Virus record (IMG/VR): IMGVR_UViG_3300031766_000012
Coordinates: 1 to 48,997 of that record
Strand: one strand, 5' to 3'
Source of the DNA: a virus
Length of the DNA stretch: 48,997 nucleotides
The notes under the pieces were generated by a model, which was given only the letters and a program-made list of their open reading frames with translations, had not been told where the DNA came from and did not search any database. This document shows, in pieces, positions 5,559 through 45,293 of the stretch (position 1 is its first letter; every line of letters begins with the position of its first letter). The position numbers and the translations under genes were made by a program.

Positions 5559-5587
5559 TGTACATTTCCGGAATACTATGGTATAAT
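5559..5587 (+). promoter_or_regulatory. Early promoter P2
   Basis: TGTACA 5559-5564, 17-bp spacer, TGG-TATAAT with the hexamer at 5582-5587. Upstream are A-tracts with AGTG spacers that could act as an UP element. The leader ends in the RBS GTAAGGAGTG shared with three other early units. Confidence 0.85.
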
Positions 5588-5619
5588 AGGCCTATATTAA
5601 ATCAAAGTAAGGAGTGATT

Positions 5620-5997
5620 ATGAAAAATGAAAAACTAATAGATGCTATCAGACAGCTGTGTGTGGATCTCAAAACCGCAGGTGATGACGCATTTCCTAGT
5701 CTAGCTAAATATAAAACCGTAACATTTGAGCCAGGTAGAAAATACTGTAAAATTATCTTGCAAGATACATTTAACGGTGAAGATAGAATGTCTCAATCTG
5801 TATGGGGATTCATCAATTTAAAAGAATTCGTCAAAGAAAGGAAAATGACGAATAGCATCAAATCAGTTACTTTCAAAGAAGGTGATGTTTTGCTTGCAGC
5901 AGGTTGGAATGCCCCAGCTCTTAACACAGCAAGAGGAAATCTCTTAGATGGTTACGCAGTTGGCAGAAACAACCAACATGGTCCTACTTACTTATAG
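5620..5997 (+). CDS. Hypothetical early phage protein
   Basis: 125 residues from the ATG at 5620, 6 nt after TAAGGAG; a GTG six bases upstream is less likely. A central segment (MSQSVWGFINLKEF) and a C-terminal GDVLLAAGWNAPALNTARGN part look conserved among T4-like phages. No catalytic motif seen. First gene after early promoter P2; function unknown. Confidence 0.75.
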   Translation: MKNEKLIDAIRQLCVDLKTAGDDAFPSLAKYKTVTFEPGRKYCKIILQDTFNGEDRMSQSVWGFINLKEFVKERKMTNSIKSVTFKEGDVLLAAGWNAPALNTARGNLLDGYAVGRNNQHGPTYL

Positions 5998-24841: not shown

Positions 24842-24843
24842 AA

Positions 24844-24970
24844 TATCTCTAAGGAGGTGATCACCAATAATATATGATTTGTTTTTTAACTTATTTTATA
24901 GAAGGAGGATTACTAACAAAAAACTTTGGTTGTCCCAGATCTGCAGATCTGGGATAATCTTTTAGAGATA
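24844..24970 (+). ncRNA. Candidate structured RNA with strong anti-16S (Shine-Dalgarno-like) elements
   Basis: TATCTCTAA (24844-24852) and TTAGAGATA (24962-24970) are perfect complements that close the whole gap. TAAGGAGGTGATC (24850-24862) is a 13-nt perfect complement of the canonical 16S rRNA 3' end; GAAGGAGG recurs at 24901-24908. The first lies 13 or more nt from the nearest ATG (24874), which would give only a 27-residue peptide; the second has no start codon behind it. So these may not initiate a normal protein. Confidence 0.5.
24933..24963 (+). terminator. Probable intrinsic terminator after the DUF6433 gene
   Basis: A perfect 22-nt inverted repeat (TCCCAGATCTG at 24933-24943 with CAGATCTGGGA at 24944-24954) followed by TAATCTTTT. 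The T-tract is short, so termination may be partial. Confidence 0.6.
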
Positions 24971-24974
24971 AGCA

Positions 24975-25003
24975 TGTACTTTATTATGAAAGTGTGGTAT
25001 AAT
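24975..25003 (+). promoter_or_regulatory. Early promoter P5, 7 nt from the ATG (predicted leaderless mRNA)
   Basis: TGTACT 24975-24980, 17-bp spacer, TGG-TATAAT (24998-25003). AGGCCCT separates it from the ATG at 25011. Confidence 0.85.
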
Positions 25004-39409: not shown

Positions 39410-39438
39410 TGTACATTTCCGGTTTTATATGGTATAAT
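39410..39438 (+). promoter_or_regulatory. Early promoter P7
   Basis: TGTACA 39410-39415, 17-bp spacer, TGG-TATAAT (39433-39438). A-tracts with AGTG upstream; leader ends in GTAAGGAGTG. Confidence 0.88.
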
Positions 39439-39475: not shown

Positions 39476-39997
39476 ATGAAAGTATCAAAAGAATTATTAA
39501 ACCACATCGAGGCAGCTAACCTTAAAACTAAGGCTTGGGTTGCTGAAGATCCTAAGAATCGTTGGGCAGGACTTTATCCTACTGACGTAAGGCATTGGGA
39601 AGATCGTGGTATCTTTACACTTGCTCAGCTCGAAAGAGATGAGTTAATCACTCACATTTACGAAGGTCATAAGGATGCTTATGGCACGAAAGGTCGTCAT
39701 TACGACTTTGACGCAATGTCTCTTGAGCAGCTTAAAGCTGAAGCTGATTCAATCAGCTCTGCAATTGCTGAAGAAATGGAAAGAATGGAAGCTCAAGAAA
39801 GAGCTAGCATTGCTAAATTCGAGAATCAGATCTCTGATCTTGAAAATATGGGTGCATCTCGCGAAGACGCTCTTCGTTGGATGCTTGATGCTGAAGGTCT
39901 CAAAGATGAGTATGATGTTGGATTTGTCCAATATACCTTCGGTCTTCCTTATACGTATATGAAGGAAGAATTAACTGCTGCATTGAAGGTGGCATAA
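39476..39997 (+). CDS. Conserved hypothetical early protein
   Basis: 173 residues from the ATG at 39476 (TAAGGAG 6 nt upstream). KAWVAEDPKNRWAGLYPTDVRHWEDRGIFT, then YDFDAMSLEQLKAEA and a long helical middle. The N-terminal pattern recurs in many phages. G+C is slightly higher than in the neighbours. Function unknown. Confidence 0.75.
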   Translation: MKVSKELLNHIEAANLKTKAWVAEDPKNRWAGLYPTDVRHWEDRGIFTLAQLERDELITHIYEGHKDAYGTKGRHYDFDAMSLEQLKAEADSISSAIAEEMERMEAQERASIAKFENQISDLENMGASREDALRWMLDAEGLKDEYDVGFVQYTFGLPYTYMKEELTAALKVA

Positions 39998-40062
39998 TGA
40001 TAGTTAAAACAATAATTTTAACATTTTATTTCACACTTATGATAGTGTGGGGAGAAGACTAA
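39997..40062 (+). CDS. Single-helix membrane microprotein
   Basis: 21 residues (MIVKTIILTFYFTLMIVWGED), essentially one TM helix. Starts on the previous stop and ends 2 nt before the next ATG, with GGGGAG inside as RBS for the next gene. May be translated or just a spacer. Confidence 0.4.
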   Translation: MIVKTIILTFYFTLMIVWGED

Positions 40063-40064
40063 TA

Positions 40065-40499
40065 ATGAAAGTAATATTTGATGTTGATGGAACTCTTATG
40101 GATATAGAACATAGGAGAGTACATCTTCAAAATGGTAATAACGATTGGGAAGCATTTAACAATGCAATGGAGCATGATACTCCAAACTTTCCAATTATGC
40201 AAATCGCAAGAGAAATGTCCGATGTAGGTCATGAGATTGTAATTTGTTCTGCAAGAAACGAAAGACATAGAGATATCACTGAATCTCAAATCAGAGATTG
40301 TGGTGTAGATTTTATGCATTGTTTTCTTAGAGGTGACGATGATTTTAGACCTGATGAAGTATTCAAGCAAGATGTTCTTGATGCTCTTATCGCTCAAGAT
40401 TGGAAACCAGATCTTGTGTTTGACGACAGAAATAAAGTTGTCGACATGTGGAGACGAAACGGACTTGTGTGTGTTCAAGTAGCTGAAGGAGATTTTTAA
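40065..40499 (+). CDS. HAD-family phosphatase (polynucleotide-kinase-3'-phosphatase-like)
   Basis: 144 residues from the ATG at 40065. VIFDVDGTLMDIEHRR is HAD motif I with the HRR signature of PNK phosphatase-like proteins; IVICSARNERHRD is motif II, KPDLVFDDRNKVVDMWR motif IV. Removes phosphates, possibly 3'-phosphates of nucleic acids or nucleotides. Expressed early from P7. It lacks a capsid-targeting peptide, unlike the HAD at 26682. Confidence 0.82.
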   Translation: MKVIFDVDGTLMDIEHRRVHLQNGNNDWEAFNNAMEHDTPNFPIMQIAREMSDVGHEIVICSARNERHRDITESQIRDCGVDFMHCFLRGDDDFRPDEVFKQDVLDALIAQDWKPDLVFDDRNKVVDMWRRNGLVCVQVAEGDF

Positions 40500-40613: not shown

Positions 40614-40642
40614 TGTACATTTGCGAAAGGATATGGTATAAT
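40614..40642 (+). promoter_or_regulatory. Early promoter P8
   Basis: TGTACA 40614-40619, 17-bp spacer, TGG-TATAAT (40637-40642); two GTGAAAAAAA units directly upstream. Leader ends in GTAAGGAGTG. Confidence 0.88.
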
Positions 40643-40681: not shown

Positions 40682-40966
40682 ATGAAAAAAAGTGAAATAG
40701 TAAAATTAGCAACTTTGATAGCTAAAATCGATAATAACGAAACTTTAAGTACTGTTATTAATCTTGTTAAAGATCAACAAAAAAACATTAGAGCTACAGC
40801 AAATATGCTTGTAAAAGCTACTTTGTCTGTTGGTGATAAAGTGAAAGTTAACAGCAGAAAAATCACCGAAAACGGTGTAGTTGTTAAAATTAACAGAACT
40901 AAAGCTGAAGTCAAAATTGACGGAAGAATTTGGAACTGTCCACTATCAATGTTGGAGGTTGTATAA
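40682..40966 (+). CDS. Small early protein with SH3/KOW-like C-terminus
   Basis: 94 residues from the ATG at 40682. N-terminal helix bundle; C-terminal beta part VGDKVKVNSR...GVVVKINRTKAEVKIDGRIW looks like a KOW or SH3 barrel. Might bind nucleic acid or ribosome. Overlaps the next ATG. Confidence 0.65.
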   Translation: MKKSEIVKLATLIAKIDNNETLSTVINLVKDQQKNIRATANMLVKATLSVGDKVKVNSRKITENGVVVKINRTKAEVKIDGRIWNCPLSMLEVV

Positions 40967-42015: not shown

Positions 42016-42044
42016 TGTACAAATGCTTTAAAATAGGGTATAAT
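42016..42044 (+). promoter_or_regulatory. Early promoter P9
   Basis: TGTACA 42016-42021, 17-bp spacer, GGG-TATAAT (42039-42044), slightly off the extended -10. Preceded by an inverted repeat near 41969-41994 and A-tracts; leader ends in GTAAGGAGTG. Confidence 0.85.
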
Positions 42045-42082
42045 ATCCCCTATAAATTAAACAAATCATGTAAGGAGTGATT

Positions 42083-42364
42083 ATGGATAGATTAGCATTA
42101 ATCAAAAAAATAGCAGAAAAGCAGCGCGAAGAAAAGCAATTCCAAGAAAGCATTGCAAAACTAGATGAGCGGAAAGCTGCTATTAAAGCAACTCAAAAGT
42201 TGACAAAGACTGTAAAAGCAGCAGGTAGACAAGCACCTTCAAGCTTAGATTGTTTTTCAAGCGAAAATATGTATTATACTGATAAGCAGAATCAAGAGTT
42301 TTTAGATGGTTCTTCTTACATGGATACGTATAGAGCTACAAAATTCAGTGACGGAGAATGGTAA
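42083..42364 (+). CDS. Hypothetical early protein
   Basis: 93 residues from the ATG at 42083. Charged coiled-coil start (LALIKKIAEKQREEKQFQES), then an acidic, aromatic end. The stop overlaps the next ATG. Function unknown. Confidence 0.65.
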   Translation: MDRLALIKKIAEKQREEKQFQESIAKLDERKAAIKATQKLTKTVKAAGRQAPSSLDCFSSENMYYTDKQNQEFLDGSSYMDTYRATKFSDGEW

Positions 42365-42534: not shown

Positions 42535-42778
42535 TAGAGTAGAGTATCAAAAAATGTTATTTGCAGCAGAAGATTGGGCAAAACAAGTTTCATTTGTGCA
42601 TGCGCATTCATTAACCTCAATGCATTATGCAGAAGGTAGAAACGATGGATCTGTCATGGACATTGGTTATAATAGTGGCGTTATTAAACGTGAAATAAGA
42701 TCAACTGGAGAAGTTGTTTGGTTCGGTAAAAGACTAAAAGGTGAAGCTTTGGTTGATGAATTTAGAAGGAGATCATAA
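42518..42778 (+). CDS. Hypothetical early protein
   Basis: 86 residues from the ATG at 42518 (AAAGGA upstream). FAAEDWAKQVSFVHAHSLTSMHYAEGRNDG and EVVWFGKRLKG. Overlaps the next ATG. Function unknown. Confidence 0.6.
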   Translation: MTQYTDRVEYQKMLFAAEDWAKQVSFVHAHSLTSMHYAEGRNDGSVMDIGYNSGVIKREIRSTGEVVWFGKRLKGEALVDEFRRRS

Positions 42779-43104
42779 TGGGTATGACAAATTTTTATAG
42801 TGGTGGTATGAGATACTCACCGTGTGGCAGAAAGCGAAAAACAAATGCTTATAAAACAAAGAAGCGCACCCCTGATTCTTTTAGCGTATATACACCAACG
42901 CAACGCGAATTAGATTCACACCAGGCGCGATTAAACTTCAATAAGAAGTACCCAAGTTACGTCCCAGATAGAAAAACTGACATTACGCGTCATGACGATT
43001 CTTGGAAACTCGAAGAGAGTAAGAAATTTACAGTTGCACCAGCGTACAATAAAGGTGCATATCAAGTCATACCTCAATCCGATTTGGAACATATAGGTAA
43101 ATAG
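42778..43104 (+). CDS. Conserved hypothetical early protein
   Basis: 108 residues, basic. The C-terminal part DDSWKLEESKKFTVAPAYNKGAYQVI fits a pattern from T4-like marine phages. AGGAG precedes the ATG. Followed by the hairpin RNA. Confidence 0.7.
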   Translation: MGMTNFYSGGMRYSPCGRKRKTNAYKTKKRTPDSFSVYTPTQRELDSHQARLNFNKKYPSYVPDRKTDITRHDDSWKLEESKKFTVAPAYNKGAYQVIPQSDLEHIGK

Positions 43105-43107
43105 TTT

Positions 43108-43171
43108 TGACCGATACGATGCAATTTTCTCGCAACGAGAGACACTCCTTATCGCCGCATCGTATCGGTCA
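43108..43171 (+). ncRNA. Long-stem hairpin RNA with loop complementary to early-gene ribosome binding sites
   Basis: Arms TGACCGATACGATGC (43108-43122) and GCATCGTATCGGTCA (43157-43171) form a perfect 15-bp stem. The 34-nt loop holds a small hairpin (TCTCG-CAA-CGAGA, 43128-43140) and then unpaired ACACTCCTTA (43142-43151). CACTCCTTA is the exact complement of TAAGGAGTG, the RBS of the four leaders at 5608, 39464, 40670 and 42071. It is G+C-rich relative to its surroundings. Candidate trans-acting RNA or a 16S anti-SD mimic; RNase III could release it. Confidence 0.6.
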
Positions 43172-43180
43172 TCTTTCATT

Positions 43181-43624
43181 ATGAAGTATAAAAATACCAA
43201 AATAACATCCGATTTTATAAAGCATAGAGATAAGCTAGCTTCAGATCTAAGTGGAGAAAATACCACATTTAGAGCAGATTTCGAATGGCCCGAATGGTAT
43301 TTAGGAAAAGTTATTCCAGAAGAATCGTTACATGAAAGGTTCTATGGTTATTCATATGATACAACGCATCCTAATTATGGTAAATGTGAATTTAAATACT
43401 TACCAAAATCAGGATTAGTACACATCGGATTATATACACAAAGACAGCAATTTGATAGTTATATATTTTGGAATTGGACTAAAAAATTTGGTACATTTGA
43501 AGAAGGAAATACTATCGATTTTGAATTAATTGATGTTGTATCAAGAGATTTTGTTAATAAAAAAATCGATTATGTTAAATTTGATTATAATAAGCATGTA
43601 CTTAACGATCAAAATGTGGTATAA
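43181..43624 (+). CDS. Hypothetical protein after the hairpin RNA
   Basis: 147 residues. WPEWYLGKVIPEESLHERFYGYSYDTTHPN and a beta-rich middle. No SD before the ATG at 43181, so it may be weakly or conditionally translated. Its 3' end contains promoter P10. Function unknown. Confidence 0.6.
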   Translation: MKYKNTKITSDFIKHRDKLASDLSGENTTFRADFEWPEWYLGKVIPEESLHERFYGYSYDTTHPNYGKCEFKYLPKSGLVHIGLYTQRQQFDSYIFWNWTKKFGTFEEGNTIDFELIDVVSRDFVNKKIDYVKFDYNKHVLNDQNVV

Positions 43625-43625
43625 T
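43597..43625 (+). promoter_or_regulatory. Early promoter P10
   Basis: TGTACT 43597-43602, 17-bp spacer, TGG-TATAAT (43620-43625), overlapping the end of the previous gene. Drives the gene at 43654 and probably peroxiredoxin, gp33, gp59 and gp32. Confidence 0.85.
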
Positions 43626-43653: not shown

Positions 43654-44820
43654 ATGGCTAAAACAGCAACAGAAAAGAAAAGAATTAAAATGCGTGGTAA
43701 CCGTAGGAGTATCGAAGATATTCATATGGGACCAGAACCAGATTTTCGTGGTCAAGAAGTATCTGAAGATATGTACGGATCTACGTGGGCAAGAGCAGCA
43801 AATTGGTATAATTATTTCTATGCACCAAAAGATTATCAATCTGATATATTAAAATATGCTGAAGAAGTATTAGGATATTCTAAAAAAGAAGTATCATCAC
43901 TTAAAAAGTTATCTGATTGGCAATTGAACGATGGTGTAAAAATGATATGTAAATTACATTTTAGAGGATTGCCTCAACCAGAAAAGTACATAATACGTGC
44001 AAAAGAAGAAATAGCTACTAAGATTGAATTAGCTAAAACAGTTGTAGAAGAAGCAAAAGCAGCAAAGAAAGCTGCACCACCACCCATCTCAATTCAAACA
44101 AGAATTAAGAATAAAGTATATGATACAATTTATGAAGATTGGGATTGGATTATTGATGGTTGGATAGAAGGTGATTTTAAAAGATCAATTGATGTATATG
44201 AATTATTTAATAGATATCAATTAAAAGGTCAAGCAGTAACAATATTTGGTGATTTTGTAAGAGGCGAATACGAAGTTGTATCAGACTCTGTCAATAATAA
44301 ATGTGATCAAGCTGTAGAAGCATATCAGCATATATCAAAAACAAATCAAAAGAAAATGCTTAAACTTATGGAAGGAGTATTTTCAGATCTCGAACGAGTG
44401 CAAATGGCTGCAAAAGCATCAAGATTACCTCGTAAGAAAAAGGTCAAAGCGTCAGATAAACAAATCGTAAATCTAAATTATTTACAAGAAGATGTAGACG
44501 CAAAACTAGTTTCAATTAATCCAGTAATGATTCCAACAAATAATAGGTTGTTTGTATATAACGTTAAAACACGAAAATTAACAATGTATATATCAGATGC
44601 AGCTAAAGGATTTGAAGTGAGAGGATCAACGCTATACAATTGGAATGAGGATCATTCTAAAATTACAACTCTTAGAAAACCTCAAGAAATTTTACCTCAA
44701 ATATTGAGTAAAACCGAACGTCAAATCGACAACCTATGGGACACTTTTACAACCAAGATCGGTGTACCCAATGGAAGAATTAATAAAGATTGTATCTTGG
44801 TAAGGGTATCTGATAAATGA
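43654..44820 (+). CDS. Conserved T4-like phage protein of unknown function
   Basis: 388 residues. Helical first half with a long Glu/Lys/Ala helix near 120-145; then ASRLPRKKKVKASDKQIVNL, SINPVMIPTNNRLFVYNVKTRKL and GRINKDCILVRVSDK. The second half is a pattern I know from T4-like cyanophages and relatives. ATGA overlap with peroxiredoxin. May bind DNA; function not established. Confidence 0.75.
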   Translation: MAKTATEKKRIKMRGNRRSIEDIHMGPEPDFRGQEVSEDMYGSTWARAANWYNYFYAPKDYQSDILKYAEEVLGYSKKEVSSLKKLSDWQLNDGVKMICKLHFRGLPQPEKYIIRAKEEIATKIELAKTVVEEAKAAKKAAPPPISIQTRIKNKVYDTIYEDWDWIIDGWIEGDFKRSIDVYELFNRYQLKGQAVTIFGDFVRGEYEVVSDSVNNKCDQAVEAYQHISKTNQKKMLKLMEGVFSDLERVQMAAKASRLPRKKKVKASDKQIVNLNYLQEDVDAKLVSINPVMIPTNNRLFVYNVKTRKLTMYISDAAKGFEVRGSTLYNWNEDHSKITTLRKPQEILPQILSKTERQIDNLWDTFTTKIGVPNGRINKDCILVRVSDK

Positions 44821-45293
44821 AACATATCAACTTTAATAATGTTCCGGAAGGAATGTTAACTGGAGAGGAAGTCTTCGGTGGAAAAACGGTACTTGTATTT
44901 GGCTTGCCAGGTGCATTTACGCCTACGTGTAGTACAAAACAACTTCCAACATATGATGAAATGTATGATCAATTCATCGAAGCAGGAATAGATGAAGTAT
45001 ATTGCACATCGGTAAACGATGGATTTGTAATGAAAGCTTGGTTTGAAAGCCAAGATATAAAAAACGTAAAATATCTTTCTGATGGAAACGGAGAATTTGC
45101 ATCATGGATGGGAATGTACGTATCTAAATTTAATATGGGCTTTGGTCAAAGATCATGGAGATATGCAGCGATTATCAAAGACGGAATCACGTCGGAAATG
45201 TTTGCTGAAGAAGGACAAACAGATAATCATGATCAAGATCCATATAAAATTTCTACACCAGAAAATGTGTTAGAAAGTTTAAATAATGACTGA
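44817..45293 (+). CDS. Peroxiredoxin, Prx5/AhpE-like
   Basis: 158 residues. LVFGLPGAFTPTCSTKQLP contains the peroxidatic Cys motif (PxxxT-x-x-C); Arg in GFGQRSWRYAAII is the conserved active-site partner. No resolving Cys is obvious in the usual position. Reduces H2O2 or organic peroxides; with the glutaredoxin it could protect the infected cell from oxidative stress. Confidence 0.92.
   Translation: MKHINFNNVPEGMLTGEEVFGGKTVLVFGLPGAFTPTCSTKQLPTYDEMYDQFIEAGIDEVYCTSVNDGFVMKAWFESQDIKNVKYLSDGNGEFASWMGMYVSKFNMGFGQRSWRYAAIIKDGITSEMFAEEGQTDNHDQDPYKISTPENVLESLNND

Follow-up and report, generated by a model that had tools for sequence, protein, structure and literature searches.

A hairpin on the + strand of a T4-like phage genome is shown by comparison with related loci to be a real, conserved and covarying phage RNA element, its expression being inferred. 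The window, by which we mean the whole stretch of DNA analysed, corresponds to a 48,997-base virus record in IMG/VR, which is assigned to a T4-like phage on the basis of its genes for a DnaB-like helicase, a ribonucleotide reductase and a T4-type ssDNA-binding protein, and is closest to Kyanoviridae-type marine phages. We propose as the likely reading that this element is the 3'-UTR or terminator hairpin of an early operon, whose loop would cover the Shine-Dalgarno (SD) sequences of selected early mRNAs and thereby repress them; transcription, base pairing in the cell, repression and timing are all inferred.

Structure and position of the hairpin

The arms of the stem, TGACCGATACGATGC (43108-43122) and GCATCGTATCGGTCA (43157-43171), are 100% complementary, and no other perfect, GC-containing inverted repeat with a loop in the window has the length of the one at 43108-43171. 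Folding of the + strand gave -30.1 kcal/mol as against -12.8 +/- 2.7 in shuffles (z -6.4), with none of 200 shuffles being as good. In the predicted fold 43143-43156 (CACTCCTTATCGCC) is single-stranded and begins with CACTCCTTA, whose predicted unpaired probability of 0.88-0.98 suggests that it is accessible. The features of the locus are as follows:

43108-43171, + strand: hairpin with a perfect 15-bp stem (arms 43108-43122 and 43157-43171)
43126-43142, + strand: inner hairpin of 7 bp (TTTCTCG CAA CGAGAGA), placed towards the 5' side within the loop
43143-43151, + strand: single-stranded antisense segment CACTCCTTA, complementary to TAAGGAGTG(T); as GACACTCCTTA from 43141
43172-43182, + strand: T-rich tail TCTTTCATTAT, weakly intrinsic-terminator-like, directly after the stem
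42778-43104, + strand: last gene ahead of the hairpin, 108 aa, with a conserved 3' end ...HIGK-stop
43597-43625, + strand: promoter P10 for the PHROG_11903 gene
43654-44820, + strand: next conserved gene downstream, PHROG_11903, with its own promoter P10

The hairpin is flanked by the 108-aa gene and a 147-aa gene, both on the + strand, and in most relatives examined one further small gene is found ahead of it. The initial annotation, made from the sequence alone, had described a perfect 15-bp stem in a gap between two genes, which held exactly, and an RNA transcribed with the last of the early operons, which is supported, with transcription itself being inferred. No own consensus-like promoter was found within 250 nt upstream of the hairpin in 75 of 76 loci, the single match being a loose one and other promoter types not being excluded. 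The candidate of an independent sRNA gene, which should have its own promoter directly upstream, is less likely on this account (1/76 loci, loose match). Given this lack of consensus promoters and the enrichment of T after the stem (67-83% at positions 3-5 past it, over 28 lineages), the hairpin most likely forms the 3' terminus of the early transcript that precedes it. It is likely to form the end of the last early operon either as a 3'-UTR or as an RNA released by processing, with + strand transcription inferred. Because promoter P10 is located at 43597, transcription of the PHROG_11903 gene need not pass through the hairpin. With respect to the criterion for intrinsic terminators, namely a GC-containing stem and a U tract, the window shows a short run (TCTTTCATT) together with a long loop. 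More than one such hairpin per genome was not found, three contigs of 97-128 kb having one each. The opposite strand was also considered as the functional RNA, since it too folds and bears TAAGGAG in its loop, but it was rejected, as no start codon was seen at SD distance and both neighbouring genes are on the + strand.

Between the PHROG_11903 and ssDNA-binding protein genes the window contains a peroxiredoxin-like phage gene at 44817-45293 (PHROG_2281, E 3e-64). Elsewhere, the intergenic stretch 24842-24975 includes TAAGGAGGTGATC (24850-24862), which is perfectly complementary over 13 nt to the 3' end of canonical 16S and lacks a start codon at the spacing of an SD. This stretch folds strongly (z -6.7), forming a 14-bp hairpin at 24930-24957 along with a long-range stem, and the TAAGGAGGTGATC motif was absent from all other loci compared.

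Conservation and covariation among marine phages

We collected every locus that has the PHROG_11903 gene preceded by 120 nt or more of sequence, which yielded 103 non-identical loci from uncultured marine T4-like phages. In 76 of these a hairpin lies at the syntenic position and has CTCCTTA unpaired in its loop, and CTCCTTTT is seen in the equivalent hairpin of seven loci. At 75% identity the 76 loci and five variant loci define 30 lineages, of which 28 contain the exact heptamer CTCCTTA, with CTCCTTTT occurring in the other two and in some members of a third. The 59 distinct hairpins have stems mostly of 10-17 bp that are unrelated between clades, while the loop keeps ACTCCTTA. In the phage L003, whose ssDNA-binding protein is 92% identical to that of the window, the hairpin is kept with compensatory stem changes; its loop is identical to the window over GACACTCCTTA, and the inner hairpin is altered in sequence yet still forms. 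More distant phages have at the equivalent place a hairpin with a very different stem sequence, and its loop again displays CTCCTTA. Across a 19-sequence subfamily with 14 stem pairs, all 266 cells are paired (100%) and 11 of the 14 pairs show double-sided change; the covariation score was reached by none of 500 shuffles, and slid controls were 33-43% paired. The compensatory stem changes together with the kept loop imply that the structure is conserved as RNA and that it is the loop which selection retains.

The hairpin is absent from about 20 loci, most of which are without any other hairpin of note on inspection. Among cultured relatives, nothing in the phage collection matched the window at the DNA level, and the portions of Melnitz and Mosig that were examined, about 40 kb from each, yielded neither such a hairpin nor a tblastn match to the target gene family. 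An exact stem search (GACCGATACGATGC) in viral contigs recovered, beyond L002, only loci with a single chance-like match, and a search with a 19-nt 3' arm pattern recovered only near-identical contigs of the window and L003. No covariance model in Rfam, including that of the c4 antisense RNA, matched at its gathering score, and relaxed E-values gave chance matches only. In L058 and L269 there is, about 56 nt upstream of the PHROG_11903 gene, no CTCCTTA hairpin and instead a different one (CCTCTTGGCG..CGCTGGGGGG), whose loop ..TTTCCTGGATATCATTT is partly complementary to the phages' own leader AAATGATAAGGAATTG; this is possibly a diverged version.

Complementarity of the loop to early leaders

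On the + strand of the window TAAGGAGTG occurs only at 5608, 39464, 40670 and 42071, and on the - strand only as the loop itself; 0.38 occurrences are expected as against these 5 (4 on +, 1 on -), and none of 100 shuffles had 5. Each of the four leaders has an ATG 3 nt downstream and a TGTACA-N17-TATAAT promoter about 20-30 nt upstream (GCATGTACA-N17-TGGTATAATA or near). An ordinal count of such promoters gives exactly P2, P7, P8 and P9, and the remaining six promoters of early type have leaders different from TAAGGAGTG. The matching leaders and their promoters are:

5559-5587, + strand: early-type promoter P2 (TGTACA-N17-TATAAT, extended -10)
5608-5616, + strand: target leader P2, TAAGGAGTG, of gene 5620-5997 (125 aa); duplex with the loop about -15.0 kcal/mol
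39410-39438, + strand: early-type promoter P7
39464-39472, + strand: target leader P7, TAAGGAGTG(T), of gene 39476-39997 (173 aa, PHROG_21968); duplex about -18.2 kcal/mol
40614-40642, + strand: early-type promoter P8
40670-40678, + strand: target leader P8, TAAGGAGTG, of gene 40682-40966 (94 aa, ..VKATLSVGDKVKV..); duplex about -14.8 kcal/mol
42016-42044, + strand: early-type promoter P9, the nearest promoter upstream of the hairpin
42071-42079, + strand: target leader P9, TAAGGAGTG, of gene 42083-42364 (93 aa); duplex about -14.8 kcal/mol

Pairing with the loop extends over 10 nt for the P7 leader and 9 nt for the P2, P8 and P9 leaders. The loop/leader duplexes in the window, at -14.5 to -17.8 kcal/mol in this comparison, are stronger than the canonical anti-SD/leader duplexes (-8.7 to -13.2), with the caveat that the SD of these leaders is on average half paired in single-strand folding. 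As to promoters in general, the window has ten near-identical ones of the form TGTAC[AT]-N16/17-TATAAT with an extended -10 (925, 5559, 18227, 23091, 24975, 38617, 39410, 40614, 42016 and 43597), several of them preceded by A-rich GTGAAAAAAAG repeats. A HAD-like gene of the window (40062-40499, MKVIFDVDGTLMDI..) has the leader GGGGAGAAGACTAATAATG, whereas its relatives in L026 and L069 have TAAGGAGTT leaders; target membership thus seems to change between phages.

As the heptamer core is also a good Shine-Dalgarno sequence, only the flanking nucleotides test the pairing. We defined leaders as [AT]AGGAG before the ATG of an ORF of at least 35 codons, and scored the match in each lineage as the length of the longest uninterrupted complementarity to the loop that spans the AGGAG core. 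This comparison shows that the loop fits leaders from its own genome more closely than leaders from other lineages, the difference being weaker against nearest relatives. Own-lineage leaders have a mean match of 9.60 nt versus 8.50 (sd 0.18-0.19) in permuted lineages, a value as high being reached in 0 of 20,000 permutations; without the downstream gene the means are 8.80 and 7.87 nt, again with 0 of 20,000. In the nearest-relative control the own value of 8.80 stands against 6.99 for the own loop on the relative's leaders (p 0.009) and 8.31 for the relative's loop on the own leaders (p 0.03). An early gene family of unknown function with the signature MQKLVI.QYREN.. (about 165 aa) has complementary leaders of 9-13 nt in 18 records, for which as good a match was obtained in 8 of 50,000 permutations by run length and 4 of 50,000 by duplex energy. 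Examples are provided by L004 (loop AACTCCTTATTTT, leader AAAATAAGGAGTT), L020 (loop ATTCACTCCTTA, leader TAAGGAGTGAAT) and L008 (loop TTTAACTCCTTAT, leader ATAAGGAGTTAAA). The strongest single case is L040, where the variant loop CTCCTTTTAATTT matches the odd leader AAATTAAACGGAG of the same genome, with a duplex of -11.1 kcal/mol for its own loop versus -6.2 to -6.5 for the loops of ten other lineages. Leaders of the type TAAGGAGT are also about fivefold more frequent in hairpin loci (7.8 per 100 kb) than in those without (1.5), in samples that are not independent.

Against the pairing, L071 has TAAGGAGTGAAT leaders and no such hairpin in the region searched, and the leaders of L018 and L214 fit the loop only with a bulge. 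Most target contigs are fragments and may be missing their leaders. In light of the modest excess over nearest relatives, the fragmentary contigs and the L071 exception, we call the pairing of the loop with its own early leaders likely and well supported, though not proven, and its occurrence in the cell is inferred.

Of the claims in the initial annotation, that of the loop complement being the RBS of the four leaders after P2, P7, P8 and P9 held, as did the 10 nt for P7. It had named a loop not conserved in relatives as a refutation and covariation in related phages as a check: the loop turned out to be the most conserved part of the hairpin and so did not refute it, and the check, once run, gave covarying stems and the better match of loops to own leaders. 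Its translational shut-off as a negative feedback loop is supported by comparison only, with RNA accumulation, repression as opposed to activation, and feedback remaining inferred.

Proposed mechanism, alternatives and known systems

In the mechanism we propose, the stem would serve as a scaffold that keeps the antisense segment (CACUCCUUA in the window) single-stranded, and this segment would pair over 9-13 nt with the SD region of a few early mRNAs from strong early promoters, four in the window. Such pairing would block 30S binding and so lower translation once the hairpin-bearing transcript accumulates. The transcript headed by the P9 leader would run to the hairpin, so that cis pairing and feedback are possible; the remaining leaders would be reached in trans, which for the P2 leader, 37 kb away with its own promoter, is the only route. 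Repression of initiation is the natural reading, with its direction (repression or activation), its timing, and feedback or early shut-off all being inferred. Of the defining features of the class of SD-occluding hairpins (RNAIII/LhrC type), an expressed RNA that lowers target translation is inferred, and three others are present, namely a single-stranded loop complementary to the target SD, a structure kept by compensatory change (11/14 pairs double-sided; window versus L003) and loop/target co-variation between lineages, the last being weaker under the nearest-relative control. A bolder reading, to which we incline by a small margin, is that of a widespread and undescribed family of phage regulatory RNAs, in which a single 3'-end hairpin would time the shut-off of early-gene translation in trans, its loop and leaders co-evolving lineage by lineage. 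In T4-like phages, control of the early genes is mainly attributed to promoters and proteins. If an RNA reads a leader code common to several early genes, it would offer marine phages a compact timing of expression. The loop predicts targets in any new genome, the fast-changing stems with matching loop/leader changes make the hypothesis directly testable, and the conserved MQKLVI.QYREN.. family is the best candidate target.

Among the alternatives, action in cis only survives best, even if it appears unlikely. Here the 3'-UTR loop would bind the SD of the very mRNA that carries it, at that mRNA's 5' end, in the manner of Staphylococcus icaR, and the likeness of other leaders would reflect shared design. 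In its favour, a matching leader (P9, 42071) opens the window operon that ends at the hairpin, and in relatives matching leaders are usually 1-4 kb upstream on the same strand; however, the three other window leaders, one at a distance of 37 kb, are each served by a separate promoter and show the same 9-10 nt match. Very unlikely in our estimate is a pseudoknot of the loop with the SD of the adjacent PHROG_11903 gene, by which that gene would be regulated. Some relatives do have TAAGGAG in the PHROG_11903 leader shortly 3' of the hairpin, and for this gene taken by itself the own-lineage match exceeds chance (as good in 280 of 20,000 permutations), but TAAGGAG is lacking in this leader in many lineages (L037, L042, L048, L069, L070, L236), and at least 11 of 52 loci, including the window, have a promoter between the hairpin and the gene. 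An ordinary intrinsic terminator, with the loop as a protein-binding site or remnant and its SD-complement likeness incidental, would account for the operon-end position and the T enrichment at positions 3-5; it is likewise very improbable, as terminator loops are not normally conserved while stems turn over, and a protein site would not predict that loop flanks track own leaders. The mimicry of the 16S anti-SD (CUCCUUA) claimed in the initial annotation held only in part, and a reading in which such mimicry makes the loop a broad decoy towards SD-bearing or host mRNAs has very little support, for the loop shares the 7 nt of the canonical anti-SD heptamer but has A before it in the listed loops where canonical 16S has C, the leaders in hairpin-bearing genomes mostly have T at that base's partner (67 T, 41 A, 8 G, 4 C) and further loop flanks also match leaders, so that the loop fits phage leaders (TAAGGAGT) better than it imitates rRNA.

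The proposal that our hairpin family reaches several early mRNAs by SD pairing rests on a known type of mechanism, with SD occlusion being inferred by analogy (RNAIII, LhrC, the icaR 3'-UTR and P1 c4). The family itself is likely to be undescribed: no description of the element was found in the open-access literature searched, subscription journals and preprints being outside its scope. In Listeria, CU-rich hairpin loops of the LhrC sRNAs, among them that of the terminator, base-pair with mRNAs at the SD region and lower their expression (PMC4132741). The phage hairpin is alike in its loop/SD pairing, but LhrC is cellular, multicopy and stress-induced with a UCCC motif, whereas the phage element has one copy per contig, CUCCUUA and no own promoter seen. 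The C-rich hairpin loops of Staphylococcus aureus RNAIII occlude the SDs of multiple targets (PMC2837412), a likeness that does not extend to sequence or context; RNAIII is a long multi-hairpin quorum-sensing RNA, unlike the phage hairpin. An anti-SD motif in the icaR 3'-UTR pairs with the SD and blocks ribosome loading in cis (PMC3868564), thus acting on its own mRNA, while the phage hairpin matches several leaders with separate promoters. The c4 antisense RNA of phages P1 and P7 blocks translation through loops complementary near the RBS (reviewed in PMC12197685); it controls one antirepressor gene in temperate phages, in contrast to a hairpin without an Rfam family that matches several early leaders in T4-like phages. 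In T4 the proteins RegB and RegA shut off early mRNAs post-transcriptionally, acting at the SD or close to it. The site of shut-off would be alike in the two systems, with proteins acting in T4 and an RNA being proposed for the phages studied here.
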